This document shows positions 2,052 to 24,202 of a stretch of 36,952 bases of DNA, one piece after another; the first letter of the stretch is position 1, and each line of letters starts with the position of its first letter. The translations under genes were made by a program, and so were the position numbers. The notes under the pieces were generated by a model, which saw nothing but the letters and a program-made list of their open reading frames with translations, was not told where the DNA came from and did not search any database. Source of the stretch: a virus; the IMG/VR virus record IMGVR_UViG_3300022868_000893, positions 1-36,952 of that record; one strand, written 5' to 3'.

Positions 2052-2791
2052 TGGAAATAAAGTTGTCTTGTAAAGATGAAAGAAGCATAAAGAAAAACTA
2101 TTGTATAGATTGTGGAAAAGAAATAACAGGTAAAAAATATTGTCAAAAATGTTATTTTGCTTTTGTTAAGACTTTTGGTTTAAATCATAAATATAATTGT
2201 CAATGTGCTTCCTGTTTAACTAAACGAGGAAAATTAAAACATAAAGAAGGGTGTCAATGCTGTTCTTGTAAAGCAAAAAGAGGAGATTATAAAGGCAAGA
2301 ATCATCCCATGTATGGTAAGAAAAGAATTATTACTGAAGAGCAGAGAAGGAACTCAAGCATAAACAATGCTTGTTATTGGAAGGGTAAATGTTTTTCTGA
2401 GGAACATAAAATAAAATTAAGTTTGGCTAAAGTAAACTATGTTCCGTGGATAAAAGGGAAACAGCATACAAAAGAATCGAAGAAACAGATGAGTTTATCT
2501 CATGGGGGTACGGGAATTACAGGAGAATTATCAGAGTATGGTGCAGAATTTGATAATACTAAAAGAGAACAAGTAAGATTTAGAGACCATTATAAGTGTC
2601 GTATGTGTGGGGGTTCTCAAATAGAAAATGAGAAACAATTAGATATTCATCACAAAGATTACGATAAGAAGAATAATAAATGGAATAATTTAATTACTTT
2701 ATGTAGACAATGCCACATGAGAACTAACCATAATAGAAAATATTGGAAGATATATTTTAAAGGAGTTTTAGATGAAGATTTGTGTACTTAA
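2051..2791 (+). CDS. HNH homing endonuclease with NUMOD-type DNA-binding repeats
   Basis: A 246-residue protein in three parts. The N-terminal ~75 residues hold Cys pairs (CIDCG, CQKC, CQCASC, CQCCSC), probably zinc-binding. The middle has NUMOD3-like segments such as GKNHPMYGKK, FSEEHKIKLSLAK and KGKQHTKESKKQMS, which in this family contact DNA. The C-terminal HNH nuclease has the CRMCG zinc knuckle, the catalytic His pair in DIHHKDYD (H200/H201), N-N-x-x-x-L-C-x-x-C-H, and a closing His-rich end. Its ATG overlaps the upstream stop by one base, and its end overlaps the next gene by 20 bases, as free-standing homing endonuclease genes often do. It shares the module CQC-x-x-CKA-x-RG-(D/E)-YKGK with the second endonuclease at 8282-8944. 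A role in mobility, not in virion assembly, is likely. Confidence 0.88.
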   Translation: MEIKLSCKDERSIKKNYCIDCGKEITGKKYCQKCYFAFVKTFGLNHKYNCQCASCLTKRGKLKHKEGCQCCSCKAKRGDYKGKNHPMYGKKRIITEEQRRNSSINNACYWKGKCFSEEHKIKLSLAKVNYVPWIKGKQHTKESKKQMSLSHGGTGITGELSEYGAEFDNTKREQVRFRDHYKCRMCGGSQIENEKQLDIHHKDYDKKNNKWNNLITLCRQCHMRTNHNRKYWKIYFKGVLDEDLCT

Positions 2792-3410
2792 TAACAGCCT
2801 ATCTCCGGCATTTGTAATTAAAACAGAGGATGAAAATATTTTAGTAAACACACCTAAGGGGTTTTATTATTCTTTAGATGATGAAATAGATAGTGTGTTG
2901 TTTACATCAGATGATTTATATCATACTTATGATATTGAACAGCTAAAGTATATTTCTAAAAAGATGTTAATATGTTATGCTTTTAAAGAGTTTATTCCAA
3001 ATCTGAAGAAGCTAATTACAACATATGATTTACCATTAACATTAAAAGAAGTTAAGCCTTATATAGAAATTAAAAAAGGAATTACTACATTATTTTTACA
3101 TAAGAAACCAATAGGTATTTATTCCAATATATCTATGGGGTTAAAATTAAATAATACTGTGATTCTTCCATTGTTTAAGAGTATAACTGATAAGACAAAA
3201 CAACTATTGGACAATACAGATTTAATTTTATTAACATTGAAATATTTAGAAACAGATGAGAAAAATAATTCAAGTTCAGTAGATGAAATGATAAATTTAT
3301 TAAACGACATTAATGTTAAGGAGCTTTGTTTTTTAGGATTAGGTGCAGAACTAAAACATACGTTTGATAGAGAATATTTAAAGGTTGGGAATAAATTAAA
3401 AATAGATTAA
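2772..3410 (+). CDS. Degenerate metallo-beta-lactamase-fold-like protein
   Basis: A 212-residue protein starting at an ATG with AAGGAG eight bases upstream, inside the end of the homing endonuclease gene. The first 60 residues read like the start of a metallo-beta-lactamase fold: a beta-hairpin, then 'ILVNTP', then 'I-D-S-V-L-F-T-S-D-D-L-Y-H-T-Y-D' at about 39-54, where an active enzyme would have T-H-x-H-x-D-H. Around 150-210 an LILLTLKYLE strand, a helix and an ELCFLGLGAEL strand fit the C-terminal half of such a fold. Most metal ligands are absent, so any activity would be altered or lost. The fold assignment is inference from pattern, not a family match I can prove. The position just before the prohead protease suggests an accessory assembly role. 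Confidence 0.4.
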   Translation: MKICVLNNSLSPAFVIKTEDENILVNTPKGFYYSLDDEIDSVLFTSDDLYHTYDIEQLKYISKKMLICYAFKEFIPNLKKLITTYDLPLTLKEVKPYIEIKKGITTLFLHKKPIGIYSNISMGLKLNNTVILPLFKSITDKTKQLLDNTDLILLTLKYLETDEKNNSSSVDEMINLLNDINVKELCFLGLGAELKHTFDREYLKVGNKLKID

Positions 3411-3500
3411 AATTTTTCCACATTATATTTTCTTTATTTATATATGAAAAACATATTTGAAAAAAATCATTTTATGAAACTTTGTACCGAGGAGTTAAAC

Positions 3501-5945
3501 ATGCAGAGAGAACACTATAGTCCTAATGCTAAATTCAATTTTGATTTTGCATTAAAGACTAAAGCAAAAGACGATTCTGGATTTTTTGTTGTGGGGTTTG
3601 CTTCAACACCAGGATTAGATAGACATGGCGAAATAATTTCAGAAGAAGCTTTAAAAAAAGCAGCTTCTAATCTATTAAAGAAACCTAATAATGTTCTATT
3701 TTTAAATCACAATTATGATAGACCTATTGGTGTTATTCAAGAGAGTGCTTATGTTTCTGGTGGTCTGATGATTAAAGCTAAGATTTCTAATACAGAACCA
3801 GTATTAAGGGAACAAATTTCAGAGGGGCTTTGGAATGCTTTTTCAATTGGCGGTATAGTTAAAGAAGCTGAAGAAATAAAAAATAAAGAAGATGATTTAA
3901 TAGGATATAAAATTACAGAAATTGAATTGGTTGAAGTTTCATTAGTTGGTGTTCCAGCCAACCCAGAAGCTACACTATTAGAAGTAATTTCAAAAAGTTT
4001 ATTTGATAAAAATGCTAAGATAGTTAATAATTCTATTGAAGCAGTAGTAAAATCTAATAAAGTAATAGTAGTTAAGGAAAAAGAAATTGTAGATTTAAAA
4101 GAGGTGTATGCTTTAGGAGGCTCAAGAAAATCAGAAGATTATGTTACTAAGGATATATTTAGTAATTTTTTAAATGAAGAATCTCATAAACAAAAAGTTA
4201 TTACTCAGTCATATAATTATTTTAAATTAGCACTTATCTCAAAAGCAATACAAGAATATATAGGTACAGCTGGTTGGGTTTGCAAAGAAATTATAAATAT
4301 AAATCCATATAATAGTAACGATAGAACTAGACCAGTATTTAGTAATTTACAAACTTCTAGAGATATTAAAGAGGAATTACTTGTAGACGGCTATTTTTGC
4401 TTAGAAAAAGGAAATGATAAATTAGTTGTTGGTGTTTTTCCTGCATGGTCTTGTTTTTATACAGCAATTTACTCTGATAGTTCTTCAAAAGATTTAGCTA
4501 GTAATTTTGTTACTGGTTATGAAACTTGGGCAAAAGAAAATAATTTCTTTATTGGAGAAAAGATAACAGCTAAAGGGGAATTTTTAGATATTCCCGATAT
4601 GGATTTTGATACTGTTAAACTACCAGCAGACCAAAAGAAAGCAATTAAAGTTGGAGCATTAGAGTTCTTTAATAAAAAAGATATTTATATAAAAAATAAT
4701 CTTCCATTTAAAAGGGGATTGATTTTTGCAGGAGAGCCGGGAACTGGTAAAACATTAACTGGTAAAGCATTATTAAATAAATCAGAGAGTACTTTTATTT
4801 GGGTTACATCTGCAGATTTATCAAATAGCTATGGTGATATTAATTCAAAGGCATTTAAACAATATTTAGAAATGGCTAAAGAATTATCACCTTGTATATT
4901 ATTTGCTGAAGATGTAGATGATTATTTAGATTCTAAATCAGCCGTAGATACAATCAAAACACAAATGGATGGTTTAAATTCTATGGATGGTGTAGTTACT
5001 ATATTATGTACTAACTACCCAGAAAGTATTCCTAAATCTTTAATTGATAGACCTAGTAGATTTGATGATGTTATAAAGTTTGAATTGCCAGATGAAGAAT
5101 TAAGACTTGAAATATTAGAAGCACACATGAAAAGCGTAACAATAAAGGATAGAGATACAGCATTAAAAACAATAGCTAAAAAATCAGAAGGATTAACAGG
5201 GGCTCATTTAAAAGAAGTTGCTGTATACAGTATTTTATTAGCAGCAGATGATAATAATAGAGAAGAAATTAATTTAAAAGATTTAAATAAGGCTTTAGAT
5301 AAGGTTTTAAAGACAAGAGAATTAATTAACAATATGGTTGAAAAGAAAAAATATGTACAAGATATTAGAAAGTTTACACTTGGAGGTGAAATCATGAATA
5401 AGGAAATTAAGAAGAAAACTGAAAAAGTAGAAGAAGTAAAAGAAGAAAAAGTTGAAGAAGTAAAAGATGTAGAAGATGTTAAGACTGAAAAGGTTGAAGA
5501 CGAAAATATAGAAGTTAAAGAAGAAAAAGTTGTTGAAGAGGAAAAGAAAGAAGACGTTGAAGACGTTGAAGAAAAAGTTGAAGAGGTAGTGGAAGAAAAG
5601 GAATTTAATTTAGAAGAAACCTTAAAAGCTATCAATACAAAGTTGGACTCTTTTAGCACTTTAGTTGCAGATATTAAAGCAATTAAAGAAGCAACTGTTA
5701 CTGCGGTTAAATCTGAAAAGCTTGATGAAGCCGAAGAGGAAGTTGAAGAAGTGAAAGAAATTAAGCCTAAGAGAAAAGCTGTAATTGTTGAAGAAAAAGG
5801 AACAGAAGAAGAAGCACTTCTTAAACAGTTGGAAGAGATGTCATTAAAAGAAATTATGGAAACTCCGGCTGTTTGGGATAAGTTAGATAAAGATATGCAA
5901 AAAGAAATAAAAAATAAGTATGTTGTTGAAAGTTTAGTAAAATAA
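3501..5945 (+). CDS. Prohead protease - AAA+ ATPase - scaffold fusion protein
   Basis: One uninterrupted frame with three parts. Residues ~15-165 match an HK97-type (S78/U35) prohead protease: FLNHNYDRPIG with catalytic His70, FSIGG with Ser115, and ELVEVSLVGVPANPEA with Glu145. After a ~200-residue spacer, residues ~370-620 are an AAA+ ATPase: Walker A GEPGTGKT (411-418), Walker B ILFAEDVDD with the acidic pair as Glu470-Asp471, sensor CTNYPES, then DRPSRFDD with two candidate arginine fingers (R517, R520), and a lid helix region. ED instead of DE in Walker B, and the preceding LPFKRGLIFAGEPG, are reminiscent of BCS1-type AAA proteins. Residues 632-814 are Glu/Lys/Val-rich and scaffold-like. 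The ATG at 3501 has GAGGAG six bases upstream. An earlier in-frame ATG at 3444 has no ribosome binding site, so 3501 is preferred. The major capsid gene follows. The fusion of an unfoldase-like ATPase to a capsid protease is unusual. Confidence 0.85.
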   Translation: MQREHYSPNAKFNFDFALKTKAKDDSGFFVVGFASTPGLDRHGEIISEEALKKAASNLLKKPNNVLFLNHNYDRPIGVIQESAYVSGGLMIKAKISNTEPVLREQISEGLWNAFSIGGIVKEAEEIKNKEDDLIGYKITEIELVEVSLVGVPANPEATLLEVISKSLFDKNAKIVNNSIEAVVKSNKVIVVKEKEIVDLKEVYALGGSRKSEDYVTKDIFSNFLNEESHKQKVITQSYNYFKLALISKAIQEYIGTAGWVCKEIININPYNSNDRTRPVFSNLQTSRDIKEELLVDGYFCLEKGNDKLVVGVFPAWSCFYTAIYSDSSSKDLASNFVTGYETWAKENNFFIGEKITAKGEFLDIPDMDFDTVKLPADQKKAIKVGALEFFNKKDIYIKNNLPFKRGLIFAGEPGTGKTLTGKALLNKSESTFIWVTSADLSNSYGDINSKAFKQYLEMAKELSPCILFAEDVDDYLDSKSAVDTIKTQMDGLNSMDGVVTILCTNYPESIPKSLIDRPSRFDDVIKFELPDEELRLEILEAHMKSVTIKDRDTALKTIAKKSEGLTGAHLKEVAVYSILLAADDNNREEINLKDLNKALDKVLKTRELINNMVEKKKYVQDIRKFTLGGEIMNKEIKKKTEKVEEVKEEKVEEVKDVEDVKTEKVEDENIEVKEEKVVEEEKKEDVEDVEEKVEEVVEEKEFNLEETLKAINTKLDSFSTLVADIKAIKEATVTAVKSEKLDEAEEEVEEVKEIKPKRKAVIVEEKGTEEEALLKQLEEMSLKEIMETPAVWDKLDKDMQKEIKNKYVVESLVK
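5382..5388 (+). promoter_or_regulatory. Internal ribosome binding site for nested scaffold
   Basis: GGAGGTG lies five bases before an in-frame ATG (5394) inside the protease-AAA-scaffold gene, exactly where the AAA domain ends and the Glu-rich region begins. It is as strong as the sites used by neighbouring genes. Confidence 0.65.
5394..5945 (+). CDS. Nested in-frame scaffolding protein (internal start)
   Basis: An in-frame internal ATG with a strong Shine-Dalgarno site would give a 183-residue protein identical to the C-terminal part of the fusion. It starts MNKEIKKKTEKVEE and runs through about 80 residues of Glu/Lys/Val/Asp repeats. A helical, coiled-coil-like segment (about 75-115 of this product) follows, then a second acidic stretch and a conserved-looking helical end (LLKQLEEMSLKEIMETP). 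This composition is typical of phage scaffolds. The layout parallels lambda, where scaffold Nu3 is translated from an internal start within protease gene C and shares its C terminus. Expression is inferred from the sequence signal only. It lies just upstream of the major capsid gene, as scaffolds usually do. Confidence 0.6.
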   Translation: MNKEIKKKTEKVEEVKEEKVEEVKDVEDVKTEKVEDENIEVKEEKVVEEEKKEDVEDVEEKVEEVVEEKEFNLEETLKAINTKLDSFSTLVADIKAIKEATVTAVKSEKLDEAEEEVEEVKEIKPKRKAVIVEEKGTEEEALLKQLEEMSLKEIMETPAVWDKLDKDMQKEIKNKYVVESLVK

Positions 5946-5983: not shown

Positions 5984-6982
5984 ATGGATATAGACTTAAG
6001 AAAGAAATTTCTACAATCATTACTACGTAAAACAGCTATGGCTTCAGACACTAATTTATATGTAGATGATAGTACTGGAGAAAGTTACTTACCTAAACCT
6101 ATCGCTGATGAGATTATCAAAGAAGTATATGAGAGAAATATTGCGAGACAATTATTTAGAACTATAAACGTTCCAGGTAAAACTTTATCAATACCTTCTG
6201 TTGCATACGACGATGAAAATATTTATCAAGTAGGAACAGGTGTGGGTACTTCAACAGTTGTTGGTGATGACAACTCTAAACAGTTAGAATATTCAACTTC
6301 TGCAGTTGTATTAAAACCAGGTAAGTTAGCTGCAAAAGCCGAGGTTGCTAATGATGATATTAATGACGCAAGTTTAATGGTCGTTGATTTAATCTTAGAA
6401 GCTTTTGGTACTGCTTTTGCTAGAGCTGAAGAGAAGGCAATGATTTCTGCTACTGCTCAAGATGCTACTTCATCTGATTATACAAGTTTAGTAGAAGGAT
6501 TATTCTATTCTGCAGCTGACGCTCAGAAGAATACTGATACTGTTACTATTAATGCTTCCACAGATTATGGTATGACAGACGGTATTTCTGAAGGTATTAA
6601 AAACTTAGGTGTTCATGCTAGAGGAGATGTTGTTTTAATCTGCTCTGATAAGTTCGCTCATCAGTTAAGAATTGATAGAGGTGTTAAGAATGATGTTTTT
6701 GGTACAGCTCAGGTTGTTCAAAAAGGTTCATTACCTAAAATCTACGGCGTTGAAGTTTACTCATCTTCATATGTTGATGATATTGATTCTAATAAGGCTA
6801 TTCTTATACCTAAATCTGAGCCATTAATTGGTCAGGGTAGAGGCGTACAGATTAGACGTAAAGAAGATATCGAAAGAGATAGTCAGATTTTTGTTTGTTT
6901 TGAAAGATTTGATTTTACTCTTAGACATATGACTTCTAGTAAATGGGATGCGATTGTCCGTATGGATATTACTCAATCCTAG
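5984..6982 (+). CDS. Major capsid protein, HK97 fold
   Basis: A 332-residue protein with a perfect AGGAGG before its ATG, directly after the protease/scaffold gene. The N terminus is helical and charged, followed by YLPKPIADEIIKEVYERN, a typical start of the capsid E-loop and P-domain region. Further signs are a basic/acidic E-loop-like stretch, VLKPGKLAAKAEVANDDIND (spine helix start), FGTAFARAEEKAMISATA, an A-domain strand region around GVEVYSSSYVDD, and a closing beta-rich FERFDFTLRHM. These fit the phage major capsid family with the HK97 fold. Codon choice looks more C-containing than in neighbours, consistent with high expression. A strong intrinsic terminator begins 13 bases after the stop. 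Cleavage of the N terminus by the upstream protease is possible but cannot be seen. Confidence 0.88.
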   Translation: MDIDLRKKFLQSLLRKTAMASDTNLYVDDSTGESYLPKPIADEIIKEVYERNIARQLFRTINVPGKTLSIPSVAYDDENIYQVGTGVGTSTVVGDDNSKQLEYSTSAVVLKPGKLAAKAEVANDDINDASLMVVDLILEAFGTAFARAEEKAMISATAQDATSSDYTSLVEGLFYSAADAQKNTDTVTINASTDYGMTDGISEGIKNLGVHARGDVVLICSDKFAHQLRIDRGVKNDVFGTAQVVQKGSLPKIYGVEVYSSSYVDDIDSNKAILIPKSEPLIGQGRGVQIRRKEDIERDSQIFVCFERFDFTLRHMTSSKWDAIVRMDITQS

Positions 6983-6995
6983 GATAAAAATCAAT

Positions 6996-7020
6996 AGGGG
7001 GAGTTTTGTCTCCCCCTTTT
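6996..7020 (+). terminator. Intrinsic terminator after the capsid gene
   Basis: The perfect stem GGGGGAG (6997-7003) pairs with CTCCCCC (7010-7016) around the loop TTTTGT and is followed by TTTTAAATTT. In this AT-rich genome a seven-pair stem with five G-C pairs in a row is striking. It should end the capsid transcript before the glycosyltransferase cluster. Confidence 0.88.
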
Positions 7021-7038
7021 AAATTTAGGAGTAATGTA

Positions 7039-8292
7039 TTGCTTGAATTTAATTCAATATTTTCTATTTATAGAAAGACAAGATTTAATTTAGTTGAAAA
7101 GAAAACTAAAAAAATATCCTTATCTCGAGGGGAGTATAAGTTTGCTTTAATTGAATCATACAATATTTCTGATTATGATAAATATATTCAGATTGTTGAT
7201 GATTTGTCAAAAGCAAACTATTTTATTATCCATGTAACACCAAACATTCCTAAAAAACCTATAATAATAAACAATTTAATTTATGTTAAAGCACCCTCTA
7301 AATTTATGGGCAATACAACTTTTTTAAAGAAAGATTATCATAAGTTTTCAATTGTATTAGGTATTGGGGGGGACGGAATTATAGAAGCCAATAGAATTTC
7401 TAGAACATTTAAGATAGAATTAAATACTAATACAAAAGTATTACCTACAGGTAAAATGATTGATTGTGTTGTTGATGGGTCTTCTAAAATTAAAATATTA
7501 TTTGATACTAATTATGAAGCATCTGGTAGAGGATTAGGGGATATTTTAATGACTACAGCAATCATAAAACAAATTAAAAAAAAATATCCAAATTCATTAT
7601 TAACATATTCAACTAAGCCCGAAGGTAAAGCAATTCTTGCTAATAACCCCAATGTAGATAACTTAAAAACAGAGTCTTATAATAAAGTAGTGTTAGAAGA
7701 TGACTTACAGAATTATGATGAACATTTCTTTTTAGGTAAAATGACAGAAGATTATCTTGATAAAAGAAACCAACAGCCTAGGGTTGATTCAATGGCTGAA
7801 ATGTTTGATATAAAATTAGATTCTAAATTGCCTGAAATATATTTAACTGAAGAAGAAAAGGATTTAGTTTCTGATTATATAGATGTTAAAAAGTTTAATA
7901 TTGTTATTTGTATAGAAGGACTGGAAAGATATAGAAATTGGAGAATAGATTATTTAAACGAATTAGTTTCTAAATTTGATTCTAAAAATTATAATTTAAT
8001 ACTAGTGGGGAATAAAAAAATAGAAGTAGAAGGGGTTTTAAATTTAACAGGTAAAACAACAATAAGACAATTGTTTGGTATTATATCTCAAGTTGATTTA
8101 GTAGTTACAATGGATAACTTTGTAAGTCACATTGCTGCAGCCTTTAATATAAAAGAAATAATTATGTATACAACTATTCCAGCTGAGTGGAGAAGTTTAT
8201 ATTATAAAAATGCTATCCCAATTCAAAGCCCCACCGAATGTTCTCCTTGTTGGAATTTGATGAATATAAAAGGAAAAATAAATGAAGGATAA
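7039..8292 (+). CDS. GT9-type glycosyltransferase, C-terminal tail displaced
   Basis: A glycosyltransferase of the heptosyltransferase-like GT9 family (GT-B fold). After a ~150-residue N-terminal extension, the motif GRGLGDILMTTAIIKQI marks the acceptor-domain start. VDLVVTMDNFVSHIAAAFN and ECSPCWNLM mark the donor-binding end. The start chosen is the TTG at 7039 with TAGGAG seven bases upstream; an in-frame TTG at 7006 lies inside the terminator hairpin and is unlikely. The normal GT9 C-terminal Cys-containing tail is missing. The protein stops ten residues after CSPCWNLMN, and the lost tail appears at the start of the gene at 8941, in the same reading frame. The homing endonuclease gene at 8282-8944 lies between the two pieces, overlapping both. 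First member of the glycan cluster; substrate unknown. Confidence 0.8.
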   Translation: MLEFNSIFSIYRKTRFNLVEKKTKKISLSRGEYKFALIESYNISDYDKYIQIVDDLSKANYFIIHVTPNIPKKPIIINNLIYVKAPSKFMGNTTFLKKDYHKFSIVLGIGGDGIIEANRISRTFKIELNTNTKVLPTGKMIDCVVDGSSKIKILFDTNYEASGRGLGDILMTTAIIKQIKKKYPNSLLTYSTKPEGKAILANNPNVDNLKTESYNKVVLEDDLQNYDEHFFLGKMTEDYLDKRNQQPRVDSMAEMFDIKLDSKLPEIYLTEEEKDLVSDYIDVKKFNIVICIEGLERYRNWRIDYLNELVSKFDSKNYNLILVGNKKIEVEGVLNLTGKTTIRQLFGIISQVDLVVTMDNFVSHIAAAFNIKEIIMYTTIPAEWRSLYYKNAIPIQSPTECSPCWNLMNIKGKINEG

Positions 8293-8944
8293 AGTTCAAT
8301 GTAAGCTTTGTAATAGATATTTTAAAGCAATTACAAATACGCATTTAAAAAAGGAACATAATATTTCTATTTTAATGTATAGAAGTAAGTTTCCTAAATT
8401 TGAAGTAACTTCTGAAAAGACAAAATCTAAACGTTCTAAATCTTTTAGTTGTCATAAAAAAGATTGTCAATGTTCTTTCTGTAAAGCAATGCGAGGAGAA
8501 TATAAAGGAAAAATATTTACAGAAGAACATCGTAAAAATTTAAGTTTGGTTGCTTTAGGTAAAGTTCCTTGGAATAAAGGAATAAAGAGACCAAAGCATA
8601 GCAAACTAATGAGTGGAAAAGCATGTCATTTTTATGGAAAACCCCAAAGACCACATTGGGGGGAATATAAAAATATAAATATGCGCTCTTCCTGGGAAAT
8701 TGCTTATGCAAAATATCTTGATAAGAATAACATTAAGTGGGAATATGAGCCGGATACATTTGATTTAGAATATACAACATATACACCAGATTTTAAAATA
8801 GAAAATAAAAAATATATAGAGATAAAAGGATATATGAGTCCAGAAGCTTATTTTAAAATTAAAAAATTTATACTAACCAATTCAGAAATAGATTATGTAT
8901 TATTAATAGAAAAAGATTTAAAACAAAAAGGGATATTAAAATGA
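8282..8944 (+). CDS. Homing endonuclease, PD-(D/E)XK type, splits a GT9 gene
   Basis: A 220-residue protein with a modular layout. Residues 1-40 form a zinc-finger-like segment (CKLCNRYFKAI then THLKKEH). Next come CQCSFCKAMRGEYKGK and NUMOD-like FTEEHRKNLSLVALGK/PWNKG repeats. At ~140-200 there is a nuclease core with SSWEIAYAKYLD (Glu), YTPDF (Asp) and YIEIKGY (Glu-x-Lys), which is the PD-(D/E)XK pattern seen in some phage homing endonucleases. The DNA-binding middle resembles that of the HNH endonuclease at 2051-2791, but the nuclease domain is different. The start overlaps the upstream GT9 stop and the TGA overlaps the ATG of the next gene, so it sits precisely inside what looks like one former glycosyltransferase gene. 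No room remains for a group I intron core. Confidence 0.8.
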   Translation: MKDKVQCKLCNRYFKAITNTHLKKEHNISILMYRSKFPKFEVTSEKTKSKRSKSFSCHKKDCQCSFCKAMRGEYKGKIFTEEHRKNLSLVALGKVPWNKGIKRPKHSKLMSGKACHFYGKPQRPHWGEYKNINMRSSWEIAYAKYLDKNNIKWEYEPDTFDLEYTTYTPDFKIENKKYIEIKGYMSPEAYFKIKKFILTNSEIDYVLLIEKDLKQKGILK

Positions 8945-10083
8945 GAAGTTGCCCCTATAATGGAAAATGTATAGATAATTTAACTCCAGATTTAATATTT
9001 AATTACATTAAAAAGAATTGTTCAAAAAAGAATAGAGAAATTCAAGATTTTTGTAAAACAAATTTAAAAAAAAATTCAAAATCAAAATTGCCTATAGTAA
9101 AAAACAATTCGAAGGTTGTTTGTATTTCATTGTGGAGAAGATTAGGAGATTGCTTATTTGCCATACCAGCTATAAAACAAATAAGAAAAAAATATCCAAA
9201 CCATAGAATCATTTGGTTAACACATTATAAGTATTATGATATAGTTAAGAATTTACCTTATATAGATGATTATGTTTTATTTCAAGGCAAGATAGAAGAT
9301 GGTTGGGATGCTTATTTATTAAACCCTGAAGGACAGATTACAAAATTTGTAAACCAATTAAAACCAGAAAAGTTTTATGATTTACATATTAGCCCTCAGT
9401 ATAGTTCAGATTTAACTAGAAAAGAATATAGTATAGTTGAATATGTTGGTTATGAGAGAGCTGGCTTAACTGAATTAGATACTCAATTAGAATACTATCC
9501 AGATAAAGAATTAGATAGTGTAGTTAAAAAAGATTTTGATGAATTTAGAAAAGGTTACAAGGGGATAGTAACATTTAATAGTAGCTGTTTTTCAATAGCA
9601 CATGAAAAATTATTTTCCAAAAGTGATATAGATAATGTTTTAGACTTATTTGAAAAAGATGGGTATCGAGTAATTAATCTAGGTCATATTTTAGACAGTA
9701 AATGTAGTAATAGAATTAATTATCAGCATTGTTCTTTAGATTATATTTATTATGGAGTAAAGCATTCAGATTTATTTATTGGGTTTGATAGCGGGGTTAG
9801 AAATCTTGCTTTAACAGTTCCAAATTCAAATGTTATTAGTTTAGATAACAAGCAATCAATAAAAAATAAATCCTCAGTAGAATTAGTTTCTGACTCATAT
9901 ACACATGTTGCTGTTAATATTGATGAAGAGAAACCTTATAGTGTATATTTAAAGGGTAAAAGTTTATTAACAGGAAAAGAAATAATAGTGACTGAATATT
10001 CAGACATTTTAAAATATCAATTTATTAGAAGAAAAGAAACTGCTGCTATAAAATTACAAAATGAAGAAAGAAAAAAGAAATGA
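8941..10083 (+). CDS. GT9-type glycosyltransferase with displaced GT9 tail at N terminus
   Basis: A 380-residue protein. Residues 1-~40 (CPYNGKCIDNLTPDLIFNYI) look like the C-terminal tail of a GT9 enzyme (C-x-x-x-x-x-C-x-x-x-(I/L)-T-P-x-x-(I/V)), not like an N terminus. I read it as the missing end of the glycosyltransferase at 7039-8292. From ~60 a second complete GT9-like unit begins: VVCISLWRRLGDCLFAIPAIKQI, then the donor-side segment SDLFIGFDSGVRNLALTVPN. The original gene was therefore probably a tandem two-domain GT9 protein, cut by the endonuclease gene at 8282-8944. The ATG overlaps the endonuclease TGA. The acceptor is unknown; surface polysaccharide or virion protein are the alternatives. 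Confidence 0.75.
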   Translation: MRSCPYNGKCIDNLTPDLIFNYIKKNCSKKNREIQDFCKTNLKKNSKSKLPIVKNNSKVVCISLWRRLGDCLFAIPAIKQIRKKYPNHRIIWLTHYKYYDIVKNLPYIDDYVLFQGKIEDGWDAYLLNPEGQITKFVNQLKPEKFYDLHISPQYSSDLTRKEYSIVEYVGYERAGLTELDTQLEYYPDKELDSVVKKDFDEFRKGYKGIVTFNSSCFSIAHEKLFSKSDIDNVLDLFEKDGYRVINLGHILDSKCSNRINYQHCSLDYIYYGVKHSDLFIGFDSGVRNLALTVPNSNVISLDNKQSIKNKSSVELVSDSYTHVAVNIDEEKPYSVYLKGKSLLTGKEIIVTEYSDILKYQFIRRKETAAIKLQNEERKKK

Positions 10084-10119
10084 AAAAAGATTTTAAAGGT
10101 TTTATTGGGGAGAAGCATT

Positions 10120-10983
10120 ATGCAGTATGATGCCGTTATTTTAGTTACAAGTTCAAATGGGCAAAGTGAAATAACAAAAAAATGTTTGGATAGCATTGTA
10201 TCTAAATTTAAAATAAAAATCTTTTTATTAAATTATGGAGTAGGGGATAAAGAAATTCAAAAATTAGGGAACAAAGTAGATTACTTTGAAGAATTTCCTG
10301 ACGGCACTCCAATAACTGTAGAAATGAACCGAGGAATTCAATTAGCTATCCCAAAAACTAAAATTGTATTTAATCTTAATAACGATACTGTTATGCATAA
10401 AAAAACAATTGATTTTATGATAGAGGTTTTAAAGACAACAGATATAAAATCTCTTTGCGGTCACATAACAACTTCTTTAGACGAATTGCACGATTTTGAT
10501 ATAAAAGAAAAAGGTGATTTATATTATAAAGATAATTTTGTAAGTCAAAATAAATTTAAATCTTGGCTTGAGGTTTTAAATGTTGATTTTGGCTTTGATT
10601 TGTATTCTGCGAATGCTTGGCACACAGATTATTTTAAGCAGATTGGCTTAGTAGATAGTAAAAATTTTAATGAGGGTATTTACTTTTGGGATACTGATTA
10701 TCAGTACAGGGGTGTTTTAAAGGGTATAGAAACGTATGTAGCAAGTAGTGCAGTATATTATCATGCTTGTGCTCATACTGCAAATACAAGTACTGCTGCA
10801 AGAAGTAGACTTGATGAAATGTACATAAAGATGAAATTAGCTTATCAAAAAAAATGGGGTGGTAAATTAACAACTAGTATGTATATTGGTACACAACACA
10901 ATGAAGATTTTGTAGTTCCTAATCAAGATAAATTAAAGCAATCTGAACTTTTAGAATTTAGTACAGGAAAAATAAAGAAGTGA
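10120..10983 (+). CDS. GT2-like glycosyltransferase (GT-A fold)
   Basis: The ATG at 10120 has GGGGAG seven bases upstream and is preferred to the in-frame TTG at 10105. The 287-residue product starts with a Rossmann-like strand (YDAVILVTSSNG) and has EMNRGIQLA and VFNLNNDT, where the N-x-D of NND stands for the metal-binding DxD of family 2 glycosyltransferases. It continues with a DFGFDLYSANAWH segment and WDTDYQYR, comparable to the acceptor-side ED/WDxD motif of GT2 enzymes. The C terminus is basic. It transfers a sugar from a nucleotide donor to an unknown acceptor. Its stop overlaps the GTG start of the following methyltransferase. Confidence 0.7.
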   Translation: MQYDAVILVTSSNGQSEITKKCLDSIVSKFKIKIFLLNYGVGDKEIQKLGNKVDYFEEFPDGTPITVEMNRGIQLAIPKTKIVFNLNNDTVMHKKTIDFMIEVLKTTDIKSLCGHITTSLDELHDFDIKEKGDLYYKDNFVSQNKFKSWLEVLNVDFGFDLYSANAWHTDYFKQIGLVDSKNFNEGIYFWDTDYQYRGVLKGIETYVASSAVYYHACAHTANTSTAARSRLDEMYIKMKLAYQKKWGGKLTTSMYIGTQHNEDFVVPNQDKLKQSELLEFSTGKIKK

Positions 10984-11636
10984 AAAAAAAATTAAATATT
11001 AAAGCTATAGAAAAACATTGGAATGAAACAGCTCAGAAAGATGTAATGCATTATATTTCTTGGAGTGGTGATTGGGGTATTCCTCATGGAAAAGCTAGAT
11101 TTTATGCTGCTGGTAAAACAGAAGTAGAAGTTTTGATGTTTAGGTTATGTGATTATGATTTGGGGGATTCAGCTTTAGAAGTTGGTTGTGGTATAGGGAG
11201 ACAAACAAAAGAGTTATCTACTAGATTTAAGAAATTATATGCTGTAGATATTTCTGAAAAGATGATAGAGAGAGCTAAAGAAGAATTATCAGAGATTAAA
11301 AATATAGATTTTAAAAAGATAGACGGCATTAATCTAACTCATATAAAAAATAATTCAATTAGCTTTGTGTATAGCTTTATAGTTTTACAACATATATCAA
11401 AAGAGCCTGCTTGTAAATTAATAAATGAAATGTGTAGAGTATTAAAGGAAAAAGGGATAATACATTTTCAGTTTTATAATTTAGAAAGGGATAATAATGA
11501 TGATGATGATGCCCATATATTACAATATCTAGATTTACATTCTATTGAAAAAATATTTAAAAAACATTCAATAGAGATACAGAGATTAGAAGGAATGAGA
11601 ACTCATTATGCTTGGGTAACTGGGATAAAGAACTAG
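10980..11636 (+). CDS. SAM-dependent methyltransferase (class I)
   Basis: A 218-residue protein starting at a GTG that overlaps the preceding TGA. Residues 66-74 (LEVGCGIGR) are motif I of class I methyltransferases and bind S-adenosylmethionine. YAVDISEKMIERAKEE is motif II, and IVLQHISKEPACKLINEMCRV fits motif IV and the following helix. This is the small-molecule or glycan methyltransferase type, not a DNA methyltransferase: no DPPY-like motif is seen. Between glycosyltransferase and LicD genes, methylation of a sugar is the likely task. The odd run NNDDDD near residue 170 is probably a surface loop. Confidence 0.8.
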   Translation: MKKKLNIKAIEKHWNETAQKDVMHYISWSGDWGIPHGKARFYAAGKTEVEVLMFRLCDYDLGDSALEVGCGIGRQTKELSTRFKKLYAVDISEKMIERAKEELSEIKNIDFKKIDGINLTHIKNNSISFVYSFIVLQHISKEPACKLINEMCRVLKEKGIIHFQFYNLERDNNDDDDAHILQYLDLHSIEKIFKKHSIEIQRLEGMRTHYAWVTGIKN

Positions 11637-11645
11637 GAGATAAGA

Positions 11646-12266
11646 ATGGAAGATGTAACAAGTTTTGCAGCTATTGGAGAAGAAACATTATCAATTGAAT
11701 TGAAGAAGCTTAGAGACACATTAAAAGAAATAGATATTGATATAATATTATGCTATGGTGTGTTACTTGGAGCAATTCGTGAGAATAGATTTTTGCCTTG
11801 GGATAAAGATATTGATGTATTTTTATTACCACATATTGATTTAGAAAAAGTAAAGAAACATTTAATAGATAAGGGATATGATGCAGTATCATCTGGGGCA
11901 ACTGATGTTCCATTTGGAGAATTCTTATGGGCAAAAAGATATGTAGATGATAAGATAATAGTATTTGAATTACAGCAAGTTCATTATAAAGATGACATAG
12001 CTTTTACTAATAAATATTTAGGTGATTCTTATAATAAGGAAGTAAAGAAAGCAGCAACAGTATATCCAAAAAGAATGTTTGCAGAATTAGATACTATTGA
12101 ATTTTATGGAGAAAAGTATTTTATACCTAGCAACGCTAAGGAATATTTAACAATGACTTATTACAACTGGAAAGAACCAGAAGAATATGTTGATTGGAGA
12201 TACCATACAAAGTCACTACAAGAAGGCTGGGTTGAAATGGATAATGAAAAAGAGGAGAACAAATGA
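11646..12266 (+). CDS. LicD-family phosphotransferase
   Basis: A 206-residue protein with AGGAG six bases before the ATG. Residues 37-57 contain YGVLLGAIRE followed by LPWDKDID, the signature of LicD/fukutin nucleotidyltransferase-fold enzymes, with the metal-binding Asp residues D53, D55 and D57. LicD proteins transfer phosphocholine or related phospho-groups from a CDP-activated donor to glycans. The C-terminal half has the usual aromatic-rich segment (YLTMTYYNWKEP). A cytidylyltransferase encoded 550 bases downstream could make the CDP donor. The acceptor and the exact phospho-group are not determined. The stop overlaps the start of a small lipoprotein gene. Confidence 0.8.
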   Translation: MEDVTSFAAIGEETLSIELKKLRDTLKEIDIDIILCYGVLLGAIRENRFLPWDKDIDVFLLPHIDLEKVKKHLIDKGYDAVSSGATDVPFGEFLWAKRYVDDKIIVFELQQVHYKDDIAFTNKYLGDSYNKEVKKAATVYPKRMFAELDTIEFYGEKYFIPSNAKEYLTMTYYNWKEPEEYVDWRYHTKSLQEGWVEMDNEKEENK

Positions 12267-12442
12267 AATTATTAGCGTTGGTATGTTTATTGTTTATATG
12301 TAGCGGGTGCATTTCAGGAACAGGCTTTAATAAGAAAGCAACTTTAATGCCAGATGAGGTAAGTATATCGATTGATGCTGACCCACAAGATAATTGGAAA
12401 ACAACTGAAGTAACAGGAGGTTTAAAATGGAAACTAAATTAA
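12263..12442 (+). CDS. Small predicted lipoprotein
   Basis: A 59-residue ORF with GAGGAG five bases before its ATG; the start overlaps the LicD stop and the stop lies inside the next gene. The N terminus MKLLALVCLLFICSGC is a signal peptide with a short positive start, a hydrophobic core and a lipobox-like end (C-S-G-C), so Cys16 may be lipidated. The mature part is about 44 residues and ends TGGLKWKLN. Function unknown. An outer-membrane-type spanin or a cell-surface (superinfection exclusion) lipoprotein are possibilities, with no direct support beyond the signal peptide. Confidence 0.6.
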   Translation: MKLLALVCLLFICSGCISGTGFNKKATLMPDEVSISIDADPQDNWKTTEVTGGLKWKLN

Positions 12443-12816
12443 GAAGTGCAACTAAAAGTTTTATGTGGAGAATTATGGGAGTATTGATATTAGGTGCTGT
12501 TACTTACTTTTATACAAGGCAGTGGGGTCAAACATCTCTTATAACATTTTTACATCATGGGATATTTTTAATAGTTTTTTATCTTCATGAAAGAATGTGG
12601 TTGAAGCTAGAGAATAAATATGGTCCTTTTAAAATATTGTCTAAATCTTTATGGAAGATGTTTACGTATGAAACCCTTTTAGGTAATATAATATTAGGTT
12701 TGATTACTTATTTAATTACTGGAAGTGGAAAACAAATGGGTCAAATAACATTAACTTACATTGGTATCAAACACATTTTATATATTTTAAATGAATTTGT
12801 GTGGAGGAAAAAATGA
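12427..12816 (+). CDS. DUF2061-type integral membrane protein
   Basis: A 129-residue protein with AGGAGG seven bases before the ATG. It starts with TKSFMWRIMGV, then a hydrophobic segment (about 15-30), HHGIFLIVFYLHERMW, a polar link, and a second similar half: SKSLWKMFTYETLLGNIILGLITYLI then GIKHILYILNEFVW. The repeated pattern (K-S-x-x-W/K ... H-x-x-x-x-x-x-x-Y-x-x-(H/N)-E-x-x-W) matches DUF2061, small membrane proteins of unknown function often found near sulfate or sugar nucleotide genes. Four membrane helices are likely. In a glycan cluster it could help membrane transfer of an intermediate; that is speculation. Confidence 0.75.
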   Translation: METKLRSATKSFMWRIMGVLILGAVTYFYTRQWGQTSLITFLHHGIFLIVFYLHERMWLKLENKYGPFKILSKSLWKMFTYETLLGNIILGLITYLITGSGKQMGQITLTYIGIKHILYILNEFVWRKK

Positions 12817-13214
12817 AAATAGTATACGCCTATGTGTGTGGAGATATCTTACATACTGGGCATTTATTGCAATTGGAAAATGCTAAAGCATTAGGAGACA
12901 AATTAATTGTTGGAGTATTAACTGATAAAGCTGTAATGGAGAAGAAGCCAAAACCAACTATGTCTTTTAAAGAAAGATTAAATTTAGTTAAAGCTATTAA
13001 ATATGTTGATTGTGTTGTAGCTCAAGATGATTATTCTCCACTCGCAAACATGAAGGGGATTAAACCAGATATATTAGCTGAAAGTTTAGACCATAAAAAC
13101 CAACCAGCTAATGATTTTGTAGAATCTTATGGAGGGAGAGTTGTTGCTTTTCCATATTGTCCAGGTATAAGTAGTAGTGATATTAAAGAAGAAGTAAGGA
13201 GAGAAATAAAATGA
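12813..13214 (+). CDS. Cytidylyltransferase (TagD / phosphonate cytidylyltransferase-like)
   Basis: A nucleotidyltransferase of about 133 residues. GGAGG lies five bases before the ATG at 12813, which overlaps the upstream stop. HTGH at 14-17 is the nucleotide-binding HxGH motif, and ISSSDI near the C terminus is the second CTP-binding signature. VGVLTDKAVMEKKPKP, FKERLNLVKAIKYVD and IKPDILAES follow the pattern of glycerol-3-phosphate cytidylyltransferases and of the related domain that activates 2-aminoethylphosphonate. It would make a CDP-activated polar group, which the LicD-family protein at 11646 could then transfer to a glycan. Which phospho- or phosphono-compound is used cannot be read from the sequence. 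Confidence 0.8.
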   Translation: MKIVYAYVCGDILHTGHLLQLENAKALGDKLIVGVLTDKAVMEKKPKPTMSFKERLNLVKAIKYVDCVVAQDDYSPLANMKGIKPDILAESLDHKNQPANDFVESYGGRVVAFPYCPGISSSDIKEEVRREIK

Positions 13215-14188
13215 AAAAAATATTAGTGTGTGGTGCAGGTGGATTTATAGGAAGTCATATGGGTGAGTATTTAACAAAACAAGGTCATTGGGTAAGAGCG
13301 GTAGATATAAAATGGGATAATTTTTTAAAAAGAAAATTTTATGATGAAAAGATGACATTAGATTTAAGAGAATTAAAGAATTGTATAACTGCTTTAATGG
13401 GTGTAGATGAAGTATATCAATTTGCAGCCGATATGGGGGGCATAGGTTATATAACAAGTAATCATGCAACATTAGCTAGAAATAATATTTTAATAAACGC
13501 TAATATGTTAGAAGCTTGTACGATATTAGGAGTAAGAAAAATATTTTATAGTTCTTCAGCTTGTGTATATCCTAATTTTAAACAAACTAAGGCAGATGTA
13601 ATTTCTTTAAAAGAAGAAGATGCAATGCCAGCAGACCCAAATGAAATTTATGGTTGGGAAAAATTATTTTCAGAACAACTATATAAAGCTTATGAACAAG
13701 ATAGACATATGGAAGTTAGAATGGCTAGATTTCATAATATATTTGGAGAAGAAGGTACTTATAAAGATGGTAAAGAAAAAGCTCCAGCAGCCTTATGTAG
13801 AAAAATAGCTAACGCAGTACTTACTGGGAGTTTGAAAATAGATGTATGGGGAGATGGAAAACAAACAAGGTCATTTATGCATGTTAAAGATGTGTGTGAG
13901 GGAATTTACACTTTAATGGAATCAAGGCATTCAGAGCCATTAAATTTAGGTTCAGATAGATTGATAGCAATAGATGATTTAGCTAAATTAATATTTGATA
14001 TTGCTAAAGTTAAATGTAAAATAAAACACGACTTAACAAAGCCGGTTGGTGTTAGAGGAAGAAATTCTGACAATACAAAATGTAGAAGAGTTCTAGGATG
14101 GGAACCAAAAGTAAGTTTAGAAGAAGGATTGATAACTACATATGAGTGGATACTTGAACAATTAAAAAAGGAGAAAAAGAATGGTTAA
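13211..14188 (+). CDS. GDP-mannose 3,5-epimerase-like SDR enzyme
   Basis: A 325-residue extended short-chain dehydrogenase. GAGGFIGSH (8-16) is the NAD-binding glycine motif. AADMGGIGYI, SNHATLARNN, SSSACVYP (114-121), Tyr147-x-x-x-Lys151 (catalytic pair), ARFHNIFG and VRGRNSDNT follow, one after another, the segments that characterise plant and bacterial GDP-mannose 3',5'-epimerase. They include ADMGG and REKAPAA-like positions (KEKAPAALCRK), which are rarely kept outside that family. The product would be GDP-L-galactose or GDP-L-gulose made from GDP-mannose. The nucleotidyltransferase-like protein at 15687 could supply GDP-mannose. The start overlaps the cytidylyltransferase stop. Confidence 0.85.
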   Translation: MKKILVCGAGGFIGSHMGEYLTKQGHWVRAVDIKWDNFLKRKFYDEKMTLDLRELKNCITALMGVDEVYQFAADMGGIGYITSNHATLARNNILINANMLEACTILGVRKIFYSSSACVYPNFKQTKADVISLKEEDAMPADPNEIYGWEKLFSEQLYKAYEQDRHMEVRMARFHNIFGEEGTYKDGKEKAPAALCRKIANAVLTGSLKIDVWGDGKQTRSFMHVKDVCEGIYTLMESRHSEPLNLGSDRLIAIDDLAKLIFDIAKVKCKIKHDLTKPVGVRGRNSDNTKCRRVLGWEPKVSLEEGLITTYEWILEQLKKEKKNG

Positions 14189-21518: not shown

Positions 21519-21740
21519 ATGAAAATAGAAATTTGGGAACCAAGGTGGCATGATAGAAAGGTATTAGTAGCAAAATATAAAGTAAAGTCTGGAATAAATG
21601 AAATAATATTTACAAAAGCAAAAAGCTTAAAAGATAAACTATTTAAAATGGATGAAAGGGAAATAAAAAAATATCCAATAGTATCAAATGGAAAAATAGA
21701 TTGTTATGCTATTCCTTTAGATAAATTGGAGCAATTATGA
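21519..21740 (+). CDS. Conserved small phage protein, function unknown
   Basis: A 73-residue protein with AAGGAGG before the ATG. It reads as a compact alpha/beta domain: IWEPRWHDRKVLVAKYKV, NEIIFTKAKSLK, YPIVSNGKIDCYAIPLDKLE. Small phage and bacterial proteins with W-x-P-R-W-x-D-R near the start and N-G-K-x-x-C-Y near the end seem familiar, but I know no function for them. The ATGA overlap with the polymerase gene that follows implies coupled translation, so a replication-accessory role is plausible. Confidence 0.55.
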   Translation: MKIEIWEPRWHDRKVLVAKYKVKSGINEIIFTKAKSLKDKLFKMDEREIKKYPIVSNGKIDCYAIPLDKLEQL

Positions 21741-24202
21741 AATGTACTAAATGTCAGTTATATAAGACATCATGTGTAGGAACAAAAAGCCATGTGAAGT
21801 TTGAAGGTGAAGGAAATTCAAATGCTGATATTATGTTTGTTGGTGATGTAATAGGATTTAATGATATACTAGAAAACAAATTATTTGCAGGTAAAGCTGG
21901 AACTATATTATCTGCAGCATTGATGAATTTAAATATAAAAAAAGAAGATATTTATTTAACAACACTTGTAAAATGTAAACCTGAACAAAGTAAAGCCCCA
22001 ACAATAAAAGAAACAAACATATGTACTAGATACTTAGATGATGAAATTAAAGATATAAAACCAAAAGTAATTTGTGCTTTAGGTGGGGCAGCAACTGAAT
22101 ATTTTTTAAATGAAAGGGGGATTACAAAATTAAGAGGTGGTTCTAAATGGAATGATAAATATAATTGCTGGGTAGTTCCAATGTATCACCCAAGCTACTT
22201 ATTAAGATTTTCAAAGTACTCACAAGTGTTTAAAGATTTTTATAAAGATATAAGTTTAGCAGTATCATTAACAACCGGAACTAAAAAAGAAATCATAACT
22301 AAATGTTCTGTAGCTAATACTATAGAAAAAGTAAAAAAGGTAAAAAAATATTTATTAAATAAAAAAGAATTTGCATTTGATACAGAAACAACTTCTTTAG
22401 ACCCACAATTAAGTAAAGTAATTTGTGCTTCATTTAGTAGCAAAGAAGGAGAAGGAATAGTAATTCCATTTCAAGATGAAAGAATATTTAATGAAGAAGA
22501 ACAAAAAGAAGTTAAAAAACAACTACAAGAAATACTTGGTTCAAGTTGTTTAAAGATAGCACAGAATGGAAAATTTGATATTAAACAATTGTTAATAAGA
22601 GGTATAGAAGTAAATACCTTTTATTTTGATACAATAATTGCTCACCATTTAATAGATGAGAATCTAAAACACGACTTATCTTTCTTAACTTCAATTTATA
22701 CTACTATGAAAAGTTATAAAGATGGATTAAAAGATTATATTGTAGGTAATATAAAAATAGCATTTGAAAAAGAAGTTAAACAAAATACTTTAGTTCCTGT
22801 TACTAAAACATGTAATAGAAAATCAACTATATTAGATGCCCCATTAGATGAGCTATATGAATATGCTGCTAAAGATGCAGATGCTACTTTAAGAGTGTAT
22901 AAAAAATTAGATGTAGTATTAAAAGAACAAAAGTTAAATAACTTATTTTATAAAGTAGTTATTCCAGTTGTACCTATATTAGCTAAAATGGAATTAGATG
23001 GAATAGGGGTTGATAAGGAGTATTTAGAAAAAGCTAACACTCAATTCATGTATAAAATAAAAATGTTAGAAAAAGAATTATTAGATAATAAAGATATAAA
23101 AGATTATTGTGCAAAAAGAGAGTTAAAAGTATTTAACTTTAATTCACCAAAACAATTAACTGAATTATTATTCGATGATATGAACTTAAAGCCGGTAAAG
23201 TTTACAGATAAGAATAATGCCTCAACTGATAAAGAATCTTTAGAAACATTAGCTAAAAAATATAAAAATAAATTTTTAAATACTATTGTTAGTTATAGAA
23301 AATTACAAAAGTTTCACAAAACATATATTGCAGCTTATTTAAAGTTAGGATTAGCTTCTTTAGATAATAAAATACACACTAATTATAAATTACATGGTAC
23401 TACTACAGGAAGATTTTCAAGTAGTAATCCTAACTTACAAAATATTCCAAAGCGTGGTGGTGGTGATAAGTTAATTAGAAAATGTTTTGTAGCTAGAAAA
23501 GGGTATACTTTTTTAGAGGCTGATTATTCTCAGCTAGAATTTAGAATATTTGCTCATTATTCTAATGATAAAGAATTAATAAAAATAGCTGGAGAAGAAG
23601 ATATACATGCTACAATAGCTGCAAAGATATTTAATTTATCACTTGATAAAGTAAGTAAAGAACAAAGAAGTATGGCAAAGGCAGCAGTATTTGGAGGGAT
23701 TATGTATGGCGGTGGACCAAGTATTATAGTAAATAAGTTTGGAGTTTCTTTTCAAAGAGCCGAAAGAATAATTAATGAGTTCTTTGATAACTTTCCAACT
23801 GCTTATAAATATATAGTTGAACAAAAAAAGTTTGTTAAGGAAACTGAATACGTAATTAATTTATTTAATAGAAGAAGAAGATTAGATGGTGTGCATAGTA
23901 ATGTTGCAGGAATTAGAAAAGCTTCTTTAAGACAAGCTATCAATGCTCCAATTCAAGGAGGAGGAGCAGATGTTGTATTATTAGCTATGCAAAAAGTATC
24001 TAAAGTAATTAAAGATATTGATTGTAACTTATTATTAAATATTCACGATTCTCTTATATTTGAAATCAATGATAATATTTTAAAAGAAACAGTATTAAGA
24101 ATAAAAGAAGTAATGGAAAGACCAGTTAAACTTAAAGTACCTTTAGTTGTAACAATAGAATTAGGAATAAACTTAGGTGAAATGAAAGAAATTAATTATT
24201 AA
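21737..24202 (+). CDS. Uracil-DNA glycosylase - DNA polymerase I (family A) fusion
   Basis: An 821-residue fusion. Residues 1-~180 fit a family 4-type uracil-DNA glycosylase: CTKC (C3, C6), IMFVGDVIG (in place of GEAPG), LFAGKAG, LVKCKPEQ and NICTRYL (the two further Fe-S cysteines), and MYHPSYLL. Then a 3'-5' exonuclease follows: FDTETTS (D215, E217) with later Asp motifs. The polymerase has TTGRFSSSNPNLQNIP, motif A DYSQLEFR (D596), motif B RSMAKAAVFGGIMYGG, and motif C IHDSLIF (H770-D771-S772). Motif C normally ends in Glu (HDE), so Ser is unusual. It is the main replicative polymerase candidate. As I recall, SPO1-like phages have a glycosylase-like domain on a family A polymerase too. The start overlaps the upstream stop (ATGA). 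Confidence 0.88.
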   Translation: MKCTKCQLYKTSCVGTKSHVKFEGEGNSNADIMFVGDVIGFNDILENKLFAGKAGTILSAALMNLNIKKEDIYLTTLVKCKPEQSKAPTIKETNICTRYLDDEIKDIKPKVICALGGAATEYFLNERGITKLRGGSKWNDKYNCWVVPMYHPSYLLRFSKYSQVFKDFYKDISLAVSLTTGTKKEIITKCSVANTIEKVKKVKKYLLNKKEFAFDTETTSLDPQLSKVICASFSSKEGEGIVIPFQDERIFNEEEQKEVKKQLQEILGSSCLKIAQNGKFDIKQLLIRGIEVNTFYFDTIIAHHLIDENLKHDLSFLTSIYTTMKSYKDGLKDYIVGNIKIAFEKEVKQNTLVPVTKTCNRKSTILDAPLDELYEYAAKDADATLRVYKKLDVVLKEQKLNNLFYKVVIPVVPILAKMELDGIGVDKEYLEKANTQFMYKIKMLEKELLDNKDIKDYCAKRELKVFNFNSPKQLTELLFDDMNLKPVKFTDKNNASTDKESLETLAKKYKNKFLNTIVSYRKLQKFHKTYIAAYLKLGLASLDNKIHTNYKLHGTTTGRFSSSNPNLQNIPKRGGGDKLIRKCFVARKGYTFLEADYSQLEFRIFAHYSNDKELIKIAGEEDIHATIAAKIFNLSLDKVSKEQRSMAKAAVFGGIMYGGGPSIIVNKFGVSFQRAERIINEFFDNFPTAYKYIVEQKKFVKETEYVINLFNRRRRLDGVHSNVAGIRKASLRQAINAPIQGGGADVVLLAMQKVSKVIKDIDCNLLLNIHDSLIFEINDNILKETVLRIKEVMERPVKLKVPLVVTIELGINLGEMKEINY

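Follow-up and report, generated by a model that had tools for sequence, protein, structure and literature searches.

A AAA ATPase module inserted between prohead protease and scaffold in a single reading frame of uncultured tailed phages

What might an ATP-driven enzyme contribute to scaffold removal, a step generally regarded as proteolysis that needs no ATP, both in tailed phages and in herpesviruses? The question is raised by a reading frame in the metagenomic contig of IMG/VR record IMGVR_UViG_3300022868_000893, analysed here over a stretch of 36,952 nt (the window). A preliminary description of this DNA, made from the sequence without database searches, had read the frame as a prohead protease, a AAA+ ATPase and a scaffold joined without a stop, had named no described phage with this order, and had suggested an ATP-powered step in capsid maturation.

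The frame is open without interruption from 3444 to 5945 on the forward strand (833 aa; residues are numbered in this frame unless stated otherwise). Translation probably begins at ATG 3501, residue 20 of the frame, giving a product of 814 aa (3501–5945); this codon has a better ribosome site (GAGGAG, 3489–3494, 6 nt upstream) than ATG 3444, and since the residues encoded by 3444–3500 are also similar in sister phages, initiation at either codon is possible. In two other IMG/VR contigs, L002 and L003, the ORF shows 0 base differences from the window; elsewhere they do differ, L002 by 18 mismatches in 7.1 kb and L003 by 11 in 9.9 kb. Because the ORF is identical despite these differences elsewhere, and because homologous fusions occur in five other contigs, frameshift and chimera are excluded, including the stop or frameshift between protease and AAA that had been a concern; the origin of the window in a metagenomic contig is what would speak for an assembly artefact or a missed stop, and we regard the chance of either as negligible.

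The N-terminal part of the frame is a Peptidase S78 (prohead protease) domain (3552–3977), matched by Pfam PF04586 over residues 37–178 in hmmscan (E 1.3e-12, 48.6 bits against a cut-off of 21). Its triad, already picked out in the preliminary description as HK97-type motifs, comprises His70, Ser115 and Glu145 when numbered from 3501, or His89 (codon 3708–3710), Ser134 (3843–3845) and Glu164 (3933–3935) in the 833-aa frame, and is invariant in 13 related proteases. The protease thus resembles the HK97-type family in its Pfam match and its triad, and differs in being fused to further domains and in scoring 42.4 bits with the HK97 proheadase equivalog TIGR01543, below the cut-off of 59. Directly downstream of the ORF lies an HK97-type major capsid protein gene (5984–6982, forward strand; Pfam Phage_capsid 7.7e-13, TIGR01554 above its cut-off). 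The syntenic upstream neighbour (2772–3410, forward strand) is a metallo-beta-lactamase-fold-like gene with a weak Pfam match (0.0029); in another contig, L013, such a domain precedes the protease within one open frame (6486–9614, 1043 aa).

The protease is followed by a classical AAA ATPase module with lid (4584–5363), which matches Pfam PF00004 over residues 426–547 (hmmscan, E 9.3e-25, 88 bits against a cut-off of 21.2). Both the S78 and the AAA match exceed the curated Pfam cut-offs in the window and in the related contigs L012, L015, L016 and L018. Walker A (GEPGTGKT, 4731–4754) occupies residues 430–437, or 411–418 counted from 3501, and corresponds to G216–T223 of our alignment A4, in which every position is invariant in 14 relatives except the glutamate (E217), which varies. 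Walker B (CILFAED, 4893–4913) contains an acidic Glu-Asp pair, E489–D490, and the stretch from sensor-1 Asn524 to the arginine fingers Arg536 and Arg539 (5013–5060) corresponds to N310, R322 and R325 of A4; the pair, the sensor and the fingers are likewise invariant in the 14 relatives. The complete AAA+ module proposed earlier, with its Walker A, ED-type Walker B, sensor and arginine fingers, is therefore upheld. Tyr463 (4830–4832) occupies the pore-loop-1 aromatic position: in an ungapped alignment it pairs with the pore-loop aromatic of a Cdc48-like ATPase, the Trp of its KWVG motif. Of the 14 relatives, 13 have a Tyr or Trp at this position or close to it; in most relatives the pore-loop region is shorter than that of the window, and the aromatic is displaced by about one residue from the canonical place.

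Ahead of the AAA module is a domain of about 150 residues (approximately residues 230–380; 4131–4583), which we call LINK and which the preliminary description had overlooked. It is conserved in all 14 relatives, is predicted with high confidence by AF2 (pLDDT 91, pTM 0.87) and belongs to no known family: the region had no Pfam match, no match in 50,697 phage records and none among PDB sequences (best E 0.24), and LINK alone gave no match to PDB folds at E ≤ 0.001 (the best match has E 4.9e-3, and none of the 50 best exceeds a TM of 0.42 by query length). Compared with the N-domains of distant phage AAA proteins, LINK aligned in the last 47 columns only. On a 96-kb contig, L019, LINK+AAA is a separate ORF of 469 aa (LINK E 2e-10); the inserted piece is therefore a whole AAA protein. 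The stand-alone AAA ATPases of large phages (for example L019; PHROGs 30773, 3757 and 10440) are similar in the AAA part, with a LINK-like N-domain in L019, but they are separate genes, and no such protease or capsid gene was found in the flanks (about 8 kb on each side) of those examined. One scan of cellular genomes for close relatives gave only distant AAA genes among the matches listed.

LINK+AAA is under purifying selection (dN/dS mostly 0.10–0.40, highest 0.48), and judging by its residues the AAA is probably an active enzyme. An AF2 model of LINK+AAA (pLDDT 86.6, pTM 0.80) found PAN, YjoB, the 26S Rpt subunits and FtsH as its closest structures in Foldseek. These results support a classical AAA of the FtsH/PAN/Cdc48 type that looks competent and carries a pore-loop aromatic. 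With the unfoldases FtsH, PAN/Rpt and Cdc48 it shares the classical AAA core and lid, the arginine fingers and the pore-loop aromatic, and with FtsH also a protease in the same chain; it differs from them in its N-terminal S78 serine protease, its Glu-Asp rather than Asp-Glu Walker B and its N-domain. Membership of the FtsH family itself was rejected, as there is no M41 part and TIGR01241 matches the AAA part only (101 against 600 bits).

The frame ends in a segment of 183 aa (5394–5945; residues 651–833) that is acidic, low in complexity and of net charge −24, in agreement with the scaffold-like end first described, and a homologous C-terminal segment is present in sister phages lacking the AAA. 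A further feature missed initially lies at its boundary, where a ribosome site (GGAGG, 5382–5386) stands 7 nt before the in-frame ATG 5394. The same GGAGG, spacing and ATG occur at the scaffold boundary of L013, L111, L113 and L114, irrespective of the presence of the AAA. Comparable sites are found in L012, L123 and the majority of those relatives in which the AAA is a separate gene; L015 and L018 have none at this boundary. As no strong ribosome site was found between protease and AAA, these two are co-translated, and the putative internal start would likely yield free scaffold together with a minority of full-length protein. Such an output is familiar from lambda C/Nu3, which, like herpesvirus UL26/UL26.5, is a protease–scaffold fusion with an internal scaffold start. 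The window has in common with these systems a protease and scaffold in one frame beside the capsid gene and an internal start site for free scaffold, and differs from them in the complete AAA protein (LINK+AAA, about 430 aa) between the two; its protease is also S78, whereas that of lambda C is ClpP-like.

What is new is thus the AAA inserted into a known protease–scaffold design, of which every part except LINK falls in a known family. Nowhere in 50,697 phage records was at least 80% of the full ORF covered, and the protease–AAA–scaffold order was not found in the literature in a search mostly without subscription papers and preprints; within this scope, the original impression that no described phage has this order holds.

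We collected relatives by scans with LINK+AAA and found two arrangements, fused and separate, so that the homologues are not always separate genes. LINK+AAA is fused to the protease in six distinct lineages, namely the window (with L002/L003), L012, L013, L015, L016 and L018, and the five contigs other than the window's have approximately 49–62% identity to it over LINK+AAA. In L014, LINK+AAA is joined to an unrecognised N-terminus with GHDKDKLPMA and SIGF motifs; its comparison with the protease profile in hhalign gave a probability of 6.5% (E 0.0056), and L014 was left out of the count of protease fusions. In L017, L091–L096 and L161 the AAA is a separate gene directly upstream of, and overlapping, the protease(-scaffold) gene; in L092, for example, portal, ligase-domain ORF, AAA, protease and capsid follow one another, with a 4-nt overlap between the end of the AAA and the start of the protease. 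The AAA is also upstream of the protease in L173, where the frames are about 130 nt apart, and in L100 LINK+AAA ends a 1495-aa ORF 1.8 kb before the protease. The fused and the adjacent-gene loci together tie LINK+AAA to head genes whether it is fused or not. Inspected by eye, the L100 ORF (6662–11146) seems to join metallo-beta-lactamase-like, ligase-like and LINK+AAA parts; the ligase domain has a Pfam match only in the corresponding L092 ORF. Prohead protease/capsid fusions (NF045541, phrog_617; here L147, L167 and L177) also join the head protease to another head protein, but have no AAA.

Searching with the protease instead of LINK+AAA revealed syntenic sisters in which protease and scaffold share one frame with no AAA, and whose capsid proteins are 77–94% identical to those of their AAA-bearing counterparts. 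Compared with the window, L111–L113 are 64–68% identical in the protease and 81–84% in the capsid protein, and L114 62% and 77%; the corresponding protease and capsid values are 81% and 81% for L123 against L012, 92% and 94% for L116 against L018 (the contigs of L116 and L123 being short), and 94% and 87% for L142 against L091. No member of the LINK+AAA family was found elsewhere in the contigs of L111 (42 kb), L118 (64 kb) and L142 (106 kb), which may be incomplete genomes. On the capsid-protein tree the fused AAA needs five gains or losses, at least four of them on well-supported branches. On the protease tree L012 falls among the separate-gene relatives, yet in its capsid protein and its AAA it clusters with the window, which indicates that protease parts have been swapped too. 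The AAA is therefore an exchangeable module in the protease–scaffold hinge and looks like an optional add-on to head building, and we reject the idea that it is a generally required maturation step.

Other modules were observed in the same proteins. In the hinge of L114 (1364–3385) the place of the AAA is taken by a KPYPNEHACR-type domain, a zinc ribbon and one more module; a KPYPNEHAAR-type domain recurs in the scaffold of L094 and also N-terminally in the AAA ORF of L095. A roving glycine-rich zinc ribbon (GDGQGxGGxxQGDGG...CxCPxCG...CPxCG) appears in the protease/scaffold ORFs of L012, L015, L094, L118, L119, L123 and L142, where it lies variously in the protease hinge, behind the AAA or within the scaffold of orthologous proteins; a second type (CECLDCG...KCPxC...MRR) is present in L100, L114 and L161.

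One explanation for these observations, which we favour tentatively and with somewhat less than even confidence, is that the AAA is an accessory ATP-driven remodeller of head-assembly proteins that is carried into the procapsid by the scaffold. A whole LINK+AAA protein, elsewhere a phage gene of its own, sits in frame in the hinge between S78 protease and scaffold. The full-length protein would be anchored through its scaffold end among free scaffold made from 5394, and this minority of subunits would introduce the protease and the AAA jointly into the procapsid. Inside it, or during its assembly, the AAA subunits may come together as an ATP-driven ring pulling on scaffold, protease or capsid subunits, or dissociating them, and thereby improve scaffold processing or assembly; given the close sisters with no AAA, this would be an aid and not an obligatory step. 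The linkage to protease and capsid genes, the covalent attachment to scaffold and a AAA core of unfoldase type are the grounds for proposing that head-assembly proteins are remodelled at the expense of ATP, and the repeated absence of the AAA suggests that it is accessory. This interpretation must be made cautiously: the AAA-less sisters suggest that the step is dispensable, the AAA of the separate-gene group is untied to scaffold so that a procapsid location is not general, Walker B has the order Glu-Asp, most relatives have a shortened pore-loop region with a slightly displaced aromatic, LINK is of no known family, and the reading is drawn from sequence and models. The ATP-powered maturation first suggested for this locus accordingly survives in part: the AAA is genetically coupled to the protease and capsid gene, fused or as a neighbour, and, given the same sisters, a need for ATP in the capsid maturation of this group is not supported.

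A more specific version, which we consider possible and yet unlikely, is that scaffold-tethered AAA rings unfold scaffold or capsid termini within the procapsid and feed them to the linked S78 protease, an FtsH-like machine that would have been acquired repeatedly while relatives mature without ATP. Rather unlikely, too, is a role before or outside the procapsid, in which the AAA would be a cytosolic chaperone for fresh protease, scaffold or capsid protein in the manner of YjoB or Bcs1, and the fusion a co-expression polyprotein from which the protease cuts the AAA loose. The separate-gene relatives, adjoining the protease with overlapping ends, fit this proposal, as do the Foldseek alignment of YjoB to the full LINK+AAA model over 409 columns and the weak appearance of Bcs1 among the fold matches of LINK. 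Chaperones of the YjoB/Bcs1 type likewise combine an N-domain with one AAA module. The YjoB alignment has a TM-score of about 0.5 and an rmsd of 8.5 Å, so that domain placement differs, and LINK alone had no confident match. Against the proposal, Bcs1 lacks a canonical pore loop (PMC11143374), whereas the present family keeps an aromatic there; no cleavage site could be identified in the fusion, and a cytosolic location of the fused AAAs does not follow from the existence of separate AAA genes.

One may also postulate that the hinge is a slot for passengers, and that the protease frees the AAA in the capsid, where it would stay in the virion and enter the next host, for example for counter-defence. 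Dispensability and repeated gain and loss would suit such packaged cargo, as would the other modules that the same hinge carries in sisters (the KPYPNEHACR-type domain and zinc ribbon of L114); those modules are small and not obvious effectors, however, the separate-gene relatives have no capsid anchor, and tight linkage to the protease gene persists without fusion, which leaves this explanation improbable. That the AAA is a tolerated insertion reflecting module mobility, with no head-related role, is very improbable, since its dN/dS is well below 1, its catalytic residues are invariant and it is linked to the protease even as a separate gene, even though these protease/scaffold proteins have acquired zinc ribbons and further modules in several places.

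An AAA-carrying protease next to near-identical AAA-less sister capsids constitutes a natural experiment, in uncultured tailed phages with otherwise almost the same head genes, on whether head assembly can be helped by energy-driven remodelling and in which circumstances this is advantageous. The comparison also shows the protease–scaffold hinge to be a site of gain and loss of entire enzymes.

Several other genes of the window deserve mention. A NUMOD3/HNH homing-endonuclease-like gene (2051–2791) is absent from the otherwise near-identical L002, and six base differences between the window and L002 cluster beside it at 2798–2810, as expected of co-conversion during homing. Straight after the capsid gene, 7006–14188 holds sugar-related genes (glycosyltransferase family 9, LicD, epimerase and methyltransferase), and at 21737–24202 a DNA polymerase A and an N-terminal uracil-DNA glycosylase domain share one ORF.
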